Positions 20,257-22,923 of a DNA stretch of 64,000 nt are shown here, one piece after another; position 1 is the stretch's first letter, and each line of letters starts with the position of its first letter. Where the stretch lies: the NCBI RefSeq assembly GCF_900240285.1, contig NZ_OESS01000001.1, forward strand, positions 1,240,001-1,304,000, written 5' to 3'. The notes under the pieces were generated by a model. The model ran no database searches, was not told the DNA's origin, and was given only the letters and a program-made list of their open reading frames with translations. This DNA is from Halobacillus sp. Marseille-P3879. Lineage in GTDB: Bacteria; Bacillota; Bacilli; Bacillales; Halobacillaceae. Made by a program: the position numbers and the translations under genes.

Positions 20257-20325
20257 GGTACCGGGTACACATTTCCACCATCTCTGTACCGGGTACAAAT
20301 TCCAGCTTCTATGGTACCAGGTACC
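20257..20325. repeat. Array 1: GTACCrGGTAC palindrome x3, 28-bp period
   Basis: Three copies of an 11-base near-palindrome start at 20258, 20286 and 20314, exactly 28 bases apart, separated by two different 17-base spacers. Copies one and two read GTACCGGGTAC and copy three GTACCAGGTAC. It lies between the VOC gene terminator and the promoter of the amino-acid ABC transporter. A second array with the same period occurs at 22857-22923. Confidence 0.85.
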
Positions 20326-20453
20326 GTAATCTTATAACGGGGAATTAATAGGAAATCGTACTATTGTGGTGTATTCATTAGGAAGTAGGTAGTTTTATTA
20401 CGACTGAGGGTAATAATCGCTGTATTTGCTCTTTTTCAACACAATTCAGAATA

Positions 20454-20482
20454 TTTACATTATTATTAATATTTGAGATAAT
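20454..20482 (+). promoter_or_regulatory. Sigma-A-type promoter of amino-acid ABC operon
   Basis: TTTACA at 20454-20459 and GATAAT at 20477-20482 are separated by 17 bases and lie about 32 bases before the binding-protein start codon. Confidence 0.6.
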
Positions 20483-20514
20483 ATAAAATGACTATAAAAA
20501 GGGGGAGAAGGTTT

Positions 20515-21321
20515 ATGAAGGGAAGTAAGTTGGGTTGGGTTTTAACAAGCTTACTGTTGTCAGTTTTGCTGGTTGGCTGCGGCACTTCTGACTCAGAATC
20601 ATCAGGAGAAGGTGAATCAGAAGGCGATACATATACCGTAGCCACTGATAATAACTTTGTTCCTTTTGAATTTTTGGACGAGGATTCTGGAGAAATGGAA
20701 GGGTTTGATATGGACTTAATCCGTGCAATTGCTGATGAAGCAGGATTTGAAGTGAATATCGAAGCTATGAAATTCGATGGTGTTGTTACAGGAATGCAGT
20801 CTGCCAAGTATGATATAGGAATTGCCGGCATGACGATTACTGAAGAACGCAAGGAAACCATTGACTTTTCTGATCCGTATTATGATGCAGGCTTAATTTT
20901 GGCTGTGCAAGAGAGCAACACGGAGATTGAATCTGAGGACGATTTAGCAGGCAAAACTGTAGCAACTCGTTCAGGTACTACAAGTGAATCTTACCTGCAA
21001 GACAACCATCCGGATGCAGAAGTCGAAACTTTTCCGGGTATCGTTGAAGCATATATGGACCTCCAGGCAGGTCGTGTAGATGCAGTTATGTACGATGTGC
21101 CTAATGTTCAGTACTATGTAGCTAACGATGCTGAAGGGGAACTTAAAACAGTCGGAGATGTGCTGCAGGGTGAAGAATATGGAATAGCATTTCCGAAAGA
21201 TTCAGAGCTAGTAGATGATGTAAATGAAGCATTAGAAACATTAATTGATAATGGGACATACGACGATATTTATGAGGAATGGTTCGGAGAGCGTAAGTAC
21301 GATACAGAATCCGCTGAATAA
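20515..21321 (+). CDS. Amino-acid ABC transporter substrate-binding lipoprotein
   Basis: A 268-residue polar amino-acid binding protein of the type 3 (GlnH/ArtP-like) family. The signal peptide ends with lipobox LVGC near residue 22. Family motifs are VATDNNFVPFEFLDE, GFDMDLIRAIADEAGF and GIAGMTITEERKETIDFSDPY; the arginine of ATRSGTTSE contacts the ligand alpha-carboxylate in relatives. The chain is strongly acidic. The ATG at 20515 is chosen for the GGGGGAG seven bases upstream; an earlier ATG at 20488 would add residues ahead of the signal peptide. Probable ligand glutamine, glutamate or arginine; not resolved. Confidence 0.9.
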   Translation: MKGSKLGWVLTSLLLSVLLVGCGTSDSESSGEGESEGDTYTVATDNNFVPFEFLDEDSGEMEGFDMDLIRAIADEAGFEVNIEAMKFDGVVTGMQSAKYDIGIAGMTITEERKETIDFSDPYYDAGLILAVQESNTEIESEDDLAGKTVATRSGTTSESYLQDNHPDAEVETFPGIVEAYMDLQAGRVDAVMYDVPNVQYYVANDAEGELKTVGDVLQGEEYGIAFPKDSELVDDVNEALETLIDNGTYDDIYEEWFGERKYDTESAE

Positions 21322-21323
21322 AT

Positions 21324-21358
21324 AAAAGCGTAGCAGGGCTATGTCTTGTTGCGCTTTT
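21324..21358 (+). terminator. Attenuating hairpin after binding-protein gene
   Basis: Imperfect 12-base stem AAAAGCGTAGCA with TGTTGCGCTTTT followed by CTATTTTT; probably reduces read-through into the permease and ATPase genes. Confidence 0.7.
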
Positions 21359-21420
21359 CTATTTTTAATCACTATTCATACAACTAATAAAAATAGCTGC
21401 ACAAGGAGCGGTAACTACAT

Positions 21421-22077
21421 ATGGATGCCTTCATGGAAACACATTACATGCGAGTCATGCCTTTTTTATTAGAAGGTCTCGTTTATACATTAATTATTAC
21501 AGGAGTAGGGTTATTTTTTGGGTTTATACTGGGAGCGATTTTTGGTTTAGCTCGATTGTCTAAAAGTAAAATTATTTATGGAATTGCCACAATATATGTT
21601 GAAGTATTAAGAGGTACTCCGATACTTGCACAAATTTTATTTATTTACTTTGGACTCCCTGATGTACTTGGATTTAATATTGACAAAATAACGGCATCGA
21701 TTATAGCGATTGCAGTTAATGCAGGGGCGTACATAGCTGAAATTGTACGGGGAGCAGTCTATTCAATAGACAAGGGGCAAAGCGAAGCCGGACGTTCAAT
21801 CGGACTAACAAGAGGTCAAACCATGCGATACATTATATGGCCGCAGGCTTTTAAAAGAATGATCCCTCCTCTAGGTAATCAATTTGTAATTAGTTTAAAA
21901 GATACATCACTTTTTTCTGTAATTGCTGTAGGAGAACTAACATATATGGGACAACAGTATTACGGCTTAACATTTGCCGCTTTCGAAGCACTTACGATGG
22001 TCTGTCTCTTGTATTTGGCAATTACGGTTCCTGCTTCTATATATCTACGTAGAGTGGAAAGGAGACTGGATGTTTAA
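21421..22077 (+). CDS. Amino-acid ABC transporter permease
   Basis: A 218-residue HisM/GlnP-type permease with about five transmembrane helices. The conserved EAA-type loop is [19 protein letters not shown] near residues 119-137 and the N-terminal family motif is [15 protein letters not shown] ([12 protein letters not shown] near 60-71). It likely homodimerises and pairs with the downstream ATPase, whose ATG overlaps its stop codon by one base. AAGGAGCGG precedes the start. Confidence 0.92.
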
Positions 22078-22799
22078 TGATTAGTGTAAGAGACTTGCAT
22101 AAATCGTTTGGGGATAACGAGGTGTTAAAAGGAATTAACCTCGACGTAAACCCTCAGGAAGTAGTATGTGTGATCGGTCCTTCCGGTTCTGGGAAAAGTA
22201 CACTTCTTCGTTGCTTGAATCTATTAGAAGAAGTCACGAGTGGGGACGTTCTTATTGAGGGACAAAATTTAACGGATCCAAAAGTGAATATAAATGAAAT
22301 TCGCACTAAGGTAGGAATGGTTTTTCAACATTTTAACCTTTTCCCGCATATGACTGTGCTTGAAAATATTACTTTAGGACCAAAAAAAATAAAAGGAACA
22401 AGCAAGCAGGAGGCAGAAAAAGAGGCACAGCCACTTCTTGAGAAAGTGGGACTTTCTGATAAAGCAAACGTTTATCCTGAGAGCTTGTCAGGCGGTCAGA
22501 AACAGAGGGTAGCTATCGCTCGTTCATTAGCGATGAATCCCAAAATTATGCTGTTTGATGAACCGACCTCAGCTCTAGATCCGGAGCTTGTAGGTGATGT
22601 TCTAGAAGTAATGAAGGACCTTGCAAAAGAGGGAATGACTATGGTAGTTGTGACCCACGAGATGGGCTTTGCCCGTGAAGTTGGCGATCGTGTTATTTTC
22701 ATGGATGAGGGAATCATCATGGAAGAGAACACACCTGAGAAAATATTTGGAGCACCTGATAATCCAAGAACCCGTGAGTTTTTATCAAAAGTATTATAG
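22077..22799 (+). CDS. Amino-acid ABC transporter ATP-binding protein (GlnQ-like)
   Basis: A 240-residue ABC ATPase. Walker A is GPSGSGKST near residues 38-46, the signature LSGGQKQR near 136-143, Walker [12 protein letters not shown] near 156-166 and the switch histidine in VVTHEMGFA near 192-200. The protein belongs to the polar amino-acid uptake subfamily and energises the preceding permease. It is the last gene of the unit and is followed by a strong terminator. Confidence 0.95.
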
Positions 22800-22800
22800 A

Positions 22801-22836
22801 AAAAACCACTTTAGTGTATAAACTAAAGTGGTTTTT
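22801..22836 (+). terminator. Terminator of amino-acid ABC operon
   Basis: Perfect 15-base stem (AAAAACCACTTTAGT) with a six-base loop, ending in TTTTT. Confidence 0.92.
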
Positions 22837-22856
22837 CAATTTTGGAGAGTTTTTTG

Positions 22857-22923
22857 GTACCAGGTACACAAACTCAACTCATCGGTACCAGGTACAGCTC
22901 AGCCAAAAATGTGTACCAGGTAC
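22857..22923. repeat. Array 2: GTACCAGGTAC palindrome x3, 28-bp period
   Basis: Three identical GTACCAGGTAC copies start at 22857, 22885 and 22913, again exactly 28 bases apart with two unrelated 17-base spacers. The array lies just after the amino-acid transporter terminator, so the two arrays bracket that operon (20.3-22.9 kb). Confidence 0.85.

Follow-up and report, generated by a model that had tools for sequence, protein, structure and literature searches.

Palindrome arrays at a 28-bp period in Halobacillus sp. Marseille-P3879, probable REP/REPIN-like repeats with a RAYT partner

The window analysed here is a 64,000-nucleotide stretch of Halobacillus sp. Marseille-P3879 (NCBI RefSeq assembly GCF_900240285.1, contig NZ_OESS01000001.1, positions 1,240,001 to 1,304,000, forward strand), in which two arrays of an 11-bp palindrome, GTACCNGGTAC, stand on either side of an operon for an amino-acid ATP-binding cassette (ABC) transporter. 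Within each array three palindromes follow one another at exact 28-bp steps with 17-bp spacers that differ, raising the question of what kind of element keeps its spacing without its spacer sequence. A first-pass annotation of the letters alone had reported the six copies, all of which were found exactly where it placed them (Table 1), and could name no established family. At up to one mismatch the window holds 6 matches to the palindrome versus 0.43 expected, and at least 6 were found in 0 of 100 shuffles. The comparisons reported here indicate that a family can very probably be named: the arrays look like members of a dispersed family akin to repetitive extragenic palindromes (REPs) and REPINs, whose partner would be the genome's single REP-associated tyrosine transposase (RAYT), encoded elsewhere in the genome, and which that enzyme would copy or keep. 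Directly visible in the genomes compared are the family with its fixed period, the arrays that flank the RAYT gene, the joint occurrence of the family and one RAYT clade, and palindromes and periods that change along the RAYT tree.

The assembly of this strain (G000; 4.17 Mb, 9 contigs, Halobacillus group) contains 92 copies of GTACCNGGTAC, versus 4 of the reversed control pattern, in 40 separate groups that reach up to six palindromes, so the arrays are not a recent duplication of one locus. The preference for 28 bp proved to be genome-wide: among 54 neighbour distances of up to 130 bp, 44 were 28 bp, five were 38, two were 53, and 65, 105 and 114 occurred once each, while none was 26, 27, 29 or 30 bp. 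Two repeats at a fixed distance, the arrangement by which REPINs are recognised, are thus what 44 of the 54 neighbours present. The 44 spacers of these pairs are all distinct; their first base is A in 71 of 88 cases (strands pooled), the first half being A-rich and the second T-rich. Intergenic bias, which the first-pass annotation had put forward as a point to check, was pronounced. Using a simple open reading frame (ORF) caller and 66-bp grouping, 27 of the 28 arrays of at least two palindromes lay outside ORFs although the loci are 82% coding, with 16 between tandem genes, 8 between convergent and 3 between divergent genes, and 1 within an ORF. Single palindromes lay within ORFs in 5 of 12 cases, which fits chance copies.

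Folding predictions point to the pair as the unit of structure. As DNA, a single 11-mer has a minimum free energy of 0, whereas for the window's four doublets it ranges from -5.2 to -7.4 kcal/mol (z -2.5 to -3.4); the doublet at L030:3448-3486 is a perfect 18-bp hairpin (z -8.2). Judged by the central base (R, purine; Y, pyrimidine), the 44 doublets of this genome include 22 of the form R..Y versus 6 of the form Y..R (p=0.004), as for inverted pairs. Complementarity between spacer halves is high in some relatives, with 0.64 versus 0.25 expected in Fictibacillus and Pseudalkalibacillus (n=13), 0.56 versus 0.24 in lineages with the GGGAC palindrome introduced below (n=17), and 0.68 versus 0.29 in Metabacillus arenae (n=4). 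The 11-mer carries no GTAG or GTGG tag, and since it lacks a GT[AG]G tag and does not fold alone, we have not filed it as a canonical REP.

RAYT genes and the repeats beside them

The only PF01797 match in the genome (C9:650779-651108) marks a RAYT gene (L036:13747-14298) that lies outside the window, about 0.6 Mb from its arrays, and has four palindromes upstream and two downstream, in arrays on both sides within about 250 bp. The RAYT genes of Halobacillus andaensis (G001), Halobacillus sp. A5 (G009) and a further relative (G003) are likewise flanked on both sides by arrays, with similar neighbouring sequence. The protein scores 49 bits against PF01797 (cut-off 23), carries the motifs NHIH (HUH) and YIHLNP (the tyrosine), and with one match in the genome is at low copy number. 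Its AlphaFold model (mean pLDDT 90.1) had as first Foldseek match in the Protein Data Bank (PDB) the entry 4er8, an E. coli RAYT with a REP hairpin (E 4.6e-8, TM 0.63/0.69), which was also the sole match of a PDB sequence search up to E 1, at E 0.07. GHxFQ and Y-x-H-x-NP are each present in 30 of the 30 RAYTs of our alignment A2, and NHxH, FQ and Y-x-H-x-NP are the motifs of subclass 2.1; by the motif pair FQ and Y[IV]HLNP, which the published table gives for that subclass alone, RAYTs of this type are assigned to the class-2 Y1/HUH RAYTs, subclass 2.1 or group 1. By eye, 14, 14 and 10 bp separate the last upstream palindrome from a TATACT -10-like box that follows it at L036, L060 and L052, so that the palindrome may overlap the promoter of the RAYT gene; at L054 it stands 27 bp before a TATAGT box.

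Repeats and RAYT clade occur together. In a comparison set of 61 genomes, 11 of them from the same genus, 28-bp doublets were found in seven: 44 in this genome, 54 in G001, 30 in G003, 38 in G009, and 3, 3 and 1 in genomes of another genus of the family, while reversed-control doublets numbered 0 in all 61. Within the genus, the four genomes with doublets are the same four that have this RAYT clade, and the other seven have none. The best RAYT scores against that of our strain were 289-437 bits in the four array genomes, 154-167 in the others, and 58 for the broken gene of G004. A PF01797 match is present in 48 of the 61 genomes, so the repeats go with a particular RAYT clade and not with the possession of a RAYT as such. 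Around the RAYT loci of this genome and 40 relatives, a palindrome was seen at least three times in 6 of 41, all of the Halobacillus group (the four GTACC genomes and the H. aidingensis and H. litoralis relatives); most RAYTs of nearby genera thus have no palindrome of this kind. Control pieces numbered only 4 in this set, and 2 of these were positive owing to further arrays in the strain's own locus. Weaker palindrome signals were present at L063, L068 and L070, and longer hairpins could be seen by eye near some other RAYT genes (L056, L057, L065). RAYT genes with internal stops were found at L070 and L055, in Halobacillus litoralis strain G026 and in G004.

Other palindromes occupy the same position in a wider set of named RAYT loci, the best 80 of 224 relatives found, which by title come nearly all from Bacillus relatives and Clostridia. 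A perfect 5-1-5 palindrome occurred at least three times within 1 kb of the RAYT gene in 23 of the 80 loci versus 3 of 290 control pieces from the same loci, and at least twice in 37 of 80 versus 21 of 290; without the Halobacillus loci akin to the query (L092-L096), 19 of 75 were positive. Five types were seen at least three times within 1.5 kb, all of the form G...C-N-G...C: GTACC, GTGCC, GAGCC, GGGAC and GGGTC. Doublets were also sought across whole genomes, allowing any spacer of 5-38 bp, and the reversed control gave 0 in each genome. GAGCC doublets numbered 63, 62, 35 and 40 in four genomes, and in the two listed fully 35 of 35 and 39 of 40 had a 25-bp step. Four genomes had 32, 23, 15 and 25 GGGAC doublets, and among those listed fully the step was 39 bp in 23 of 23 from Neobacillus muris and 11 of 15 from Virgibacillus. 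For GTGCC the counts in seven genomes were 78, 61, 31, 45, 49, 8 and 8, and in Bacillus sp. NTK074B 8 of 8 stood at 25 bp; the 37-bp step of the first three rests on their RAYT loci, because their doublets were not listed, and G029 and G074 give the same places for this palindrome and appear to be one genome. GTACC itself was found at 28 bp (38 of 40 doublets in G009 and 30 of 38 in G003), at 25 bp (15 of 15 in Rossellomorea aquimaris JM7) and at 22 bp, a step whose basis is two Clostridiales contigs of metagenome-assembled genomes. Steps in lineages other than our own are 22, 25, 26, 37 and 39 bp. In Virgibacillus halotolerans (G067) the GGGAC doublets stand at 31 (1 of 15), 39 (11 of 15) and 47 bp (3 of 15), that is, in steps of 8, and the spacers look built from inner 8-bp repeats.

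Palindrome and period both follow the RAYT phylogeny. In a quick IQ-TREE tree of 82 RAYTs, with 26 of 79 inner branches open, 37 rows could be labelled by a palindrome seen at least three times, and the 45 unlabelled rows were left out of the counts. Palindrome type changed 11 times on this tree, versus a mean of 22.7 and a minimum of 19 in 300 shuffles. The period test used 20 rows with one step assigned to each by hand; the other 17 labelled rows, including the GGGAC 39-bp lineages and L096 (27), were dropped for want of a clear step or to keep one step per row. Here the step changed 6 times versus 10.7 when shuffled (minimum 8) and the palindrome 7 times versus 10.8 (minimum 7). The Halobacillus clade (SH-aLRT 97) contains GTACC and GTGCC, both at about 28 bp, and the Rossellomorea clade (SH-aLRT 98) contains GAGCC, GTACC and GTGCC, all at 25 bp. 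Because palindromes differ at the same step inside these two well-sampled clades, spacing appears to belong to the RAYT clade and not to the palindrome.

Array sites, flanks and turnover

The coordinates of the arrays and of their flanks are collected in Table 1. The first-pass annotation had placed both arrays beyond the terminators of the ABC operon, as if delimiting a module. This is so for array 2, which alone lies beyond the operon's terminator; array 1 stands behind the terminator-like hairpin of the preceding VOC-family gene and before the first gene of the operon. The idea of a delimited module was rejected, as both sites vary between species irrespective of the operon. The place orthologous to array 1 has a single palindrome in G001 and is without palindromes in G002 and G003; the gap orthologous to array 2 has none in any of these three, all of which have the operon. 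In G009 the operon is missing, and the site is free of palindromes. The lack of an array in G002 is expected because it has no RAYT of this clade, whereas G001 and G003 each have one. A search of window positions 18000-26000 with Rfam at the gathering threshold gave 0 matches.

Table 1. Palindromes and flanking features of the two arrays, in window coordinates
Feature	Position	Strand	Basis or remark
Array 1, palindrome 1, GTACCGGGTAC	20258..20268	.	sequence
Array 1, palindrome 2, GTACCGGGTAC	20286..20296	.	sequence
Array 1, palindrome 3, GTACCAGGTAC	20314..20324	.	sequence
T-module T7-C-T8-CTGG adjoining array 1	20238..20257	+	similar stretches adjoin other arrays in this genome and relatives
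Terminator-like hairpin 3' of VOC-family gene, continuing into T-module	20219..20240	+	sequence and fold; missed by scripted detector
Array 2, palindrome 1, GTACCAGGTAC	22857..22867	.	sequence
Array 2, palindrome 2, GTACCAGGTAC	22885..22895	.	sequence
Array 2, palindrome 3, GTACCAGGTAC	22913..22923	.	sequence
ABC-operon terminator-like hairpin immediately upstream of array 2	22805..22836	+	comparable hairpin in G001, without array there

A number of array ends adjoin a T-rich module (T5-7, C, T6-8, then CTCTG or similar). In the fetched loci 17 such modules stand directly before GTACC. By eye, and with no shuffled control, 10 of them come after a hairpin specific to the gene and 3 after palindromes of the array itself, the remaining 4 showing weak folds only. 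The module also lies within the 27-bp spacer of 38-bp steps, in 4 of 5 cases in this genome and 2 of 2 in G009. A detected terminator-like T-run lay within 40 bp of 8 of the 28 arrays, versus a mean of 2.0 and a maximum of 7 in 500 draws of random placement within ORF-free DNA; the count is rough, since the scripted detector missed the clear terminator at array 1. Further recurrent flanks are CACACAATT beside a palindrome and one like GAAAATTGAATTTT, found at several array ends (for example L031:3778, L041:4875 and L025:14770).

Signs of turnover were seen at other sites. At L041:4864-5829 two arrays enclose a gene for a PRC-barrel protein (5038-5796), while at this locus G001 and G009 have a single array without the gene, a difference that we attribute to gene gain or loss at the arrays. 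In G009, C14:1-151 (a contig end) and C15:399513-399635 are runs of 28-bp units with five and four identical spacers, pointing to tandem expansion. Near-identical spacers are also found in arrays of Rossellomorea vietnamensis (0.79-0.95 identity) and H. litoralis SL-4 (0.87).

Competing explanations

If the arrays are RAYT-partnered repeats, two neighbouring palindromes in transiently single-stranded DNA would pair into an 11-bp stem with a 17-nt loop, and the HUH/tyrosine nuclease would recognise the paired unit at the distance proper to its clade and move or copy it. Copies would survive mainly between genes, in some cases immediately downstream of a terminator. The loop would be free to drift, and palindromes and spacing would be kept because copies losing them are no longer recognised; arrays of at least three would arise through added units, and neighbouring arrays could recombine. 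More tentatively, and with slightly less than even odds, subclass 2.1 may over part of its range be partnered by repeats after all, the RAYT serving as a ruler that reads two palindromes at a clade-fixed distance while their letters can be switched. The distances of 28 and 25 bp are the best supported for such a ruler, with 22, 37 and 39 bp in other clades, and it would imply recognition of a two-site hairpin instead of a single tagged REP.

Several observations weigh against a RAYT partnership or against parts of it. The RAYT of our strain reached 67.5 bits with the NCBIfam RAYT model NF047646, below the cut-off of 80, which the Rossellomorea RAYT L123 passed at 93.4. Movement was not observed, in genomes that offered no pair of strains differing by one exact unit and that were not searched systematically for target duplications. 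The association is not universal: among the named loci 57 of 80, and among those of this genome and its relatives 35 of 41, were without a palindrome seen three times, and G036 has one GTACC doublet despite a RAYT of 159 bits, outside the clade. Spacing is not absolute either: 8 of 38 GTACC doublets in G003 were not at 28 bp, GTGCC doublets stood at 28 bp five times and at 27 three times in H. aidingensis (n=8) and seven times and once in H. litoralis SL-4, and the commonest GGGAC step of Metabacillus niabensis, 24 bp, holds only 10 of 25. Direction was judged from the central base alone, 16 of the 44 doublets being neither R..Y nor Y..R; every central base in the two window arrays is a purine (R,R,R), Rossellomorea shows no inverted-pair bias (R..Y 5, Y..R 8), and the bias is turned round in the small GGGTC set (1 versus 6, n=10). 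A hairpin prolonged into the spacer was hardly found in our strain, where half-complementarity was 0.30 versus 0.23 expected and spacers extend the stem no further than their first base, unlike those of classical REPINs.

The first-pass annotation had read constant spacing without conserved spacers as a protein or structural phasing requirement and not simple duplication. The pattern itself held, and a protein requirement is possible and forms part of the RAYT reading favoured here, but a common helical phase was rejected: with a DNA helical pitch of about 10.5, steps of 22, 25, 28, 37 and 39 bp share no multiple of it. It seems unlikely that the palindromes are operators or nucleoid-protein sites, such that another dimeric protein binding double-stranded DNA needs GTACCNGGTAC at 28-bp phasing and has the RAYT gene as one target. 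Perfect odd palindromes would suit a symmetric dimer, and the copy 10-14 bp before the -10-like box makes a part in RAYT regulation possible, but such a protein would not account for the 22-, 25-, 26-, 37- and 39-bp steps of other lineages, out of helical register with 28, nor for palindromes that change in line with RAYT clades while the step stays. Seven genomes of the same genus with other or broken RAYTs are without such doublets, and the sites of the window arrays are not kept beside the same genes.

Still less probable is that the arrays are immobile hairpins transcribed at messenger RNA (mRNA) 3' ends and selected there for terminator reinforcement or mRNA stability, a role REPs elsewhere are thought to have in the available part of one account (PMC3733652). 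The excess of arrays beside detected terminators and the 10 of 17 T-modules behind gene-specific hairpins speak for it; yet for the other 20 of 28 arrays no terminator was detected alongside (the detector overlooks some, array 1 for example), three arrays lie between divergent genes, and RAYT linkage and clade-specific steps would go unexplained. An effect on mRNA ends may be a secondary role of the arrays. Plain tandem duplication, in which slippage expanded a 28-bp unit whose spacers then diverged neutrally, is the least probable of these explanations. The runs of near-identical spacers described above (five in G009 C14, and those of R. vietnamensis and H. litoralis SL-4) favour it, and duplication is probably one step of the life cycle. 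As the sole cause in our strain it was rejected, since spacers of one array resemble each other no more than spacers of different arrays do (0.368 versus 0.370, permutation p=0.55); in addition, neutral decay should leave steps of 27 and 29 bp as well, yet none occurs among the 54, and duplication leaves dispersal to many loci and RAYT linkage unexplained. The arrays are also not CRISPR, as the first-pass annotation had held, with an 11-bp repeat (versus 24-48 bp in the part of PMC3733652 available), 17-bp spacers and dispersal over 40 groups, a judgement made by size and dispersal, cas genes and spacer source not having been searched.

Known systems and significance

The comparisons that follow refer to the available parts of the papers cited. 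The arrays resemble the REPINs of Pseudomonas fluorescens SBW25 (Bertels and Rainey, 2011; PMC3116915) in their dispersed pairs, in clusters by RAYT genes, and in a repeat class of its own for each RAYT. SBW25 REPINs are mostly inverted pairs at a fixed distance of 71 or 110 bp with a variable spacer, so that a constant length combined with an unconstrained spacer sequence is a feature already described; the family treated here differs in its perfect 11-bp palindromes, its 28-bp step, arrays of up to 6, the lack of GTAG, and spacers that in this genome hardly form hairpins. With the E. coli REP/TnpA_REP system (4er8; Corneloup, 2021; PMC8266576) it shares the HUH-tyrosine fold and, on the present reading, hairpin DNA as partner, whereas E. 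coli REPs are imperfect GTAG-tagged hairpins and the 11-mer does not fold alone. Comparable too are the TIRYTs or TIRtrons (Di Nocera and others, 2013; PMC3733652), in which inverted repeats lacking GTAG flank RAYT-like genes; some of these repeats recur in the genome and in dimers or clusters. The TIRYT motif GGGGWSAS resembles our GGGAC type, and 20 of 26 TIRYTs fall in subclass 2.1 (Quentin, 2018; PMC6006769). That account concerns other taxa, however, and in the text available it describes no fixed spacing and no series of 5-1-5 palindromes, contains neither 'Firmicutes' nor 'Gram-positive', and has 'Bacillus' in another context only.

Subclass 2.1 is the largest class-2 (RAYT) subclass, with 493 sequences and a coverage of 14.9, and REP-like sequences were reported as not found for this TnpA_Y1 subclass, equivalent to RAYT group 1, in the sections of Quentin (2018; PMC6006769) consulted; here, by contrast, repeats are present, at a minority of loci. 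A recent RepRanger survey (2025; PMC12306157) lists REP-like sequences in many taxa, including a Bacillus subtilis row under Bacillota, and the word 'RAYT' is absent from its text as available. Among the matches listed from the open-licence PubMed Central literature, no title dealt with RAYT-linked repeats of Bacillota, and six 11-mers used as queries there returned no title on such repeats; an earlier account elsewhere is possible. New relative to the literature examined are untagged perfect 11-bp palindromes in phased arrays, in Bacillus relatives, associated with RAYTs bearing subclass 2.1 motifs.

Clade-specific spacing and lineage-specific palindromes together provide defined candidate substrates for subclass 2.1. 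Natural swaps, in which the spacing is the same and the palindrome different or the reverse, separate recognition of sequence from recognition of distance. The pattern also offers a simple annotation signature for some intergenic repeats of Bacillus relatives, and the repeats hint at the substrate of a large and poorly understood group of enzymes, the transposase-like RAYTs.

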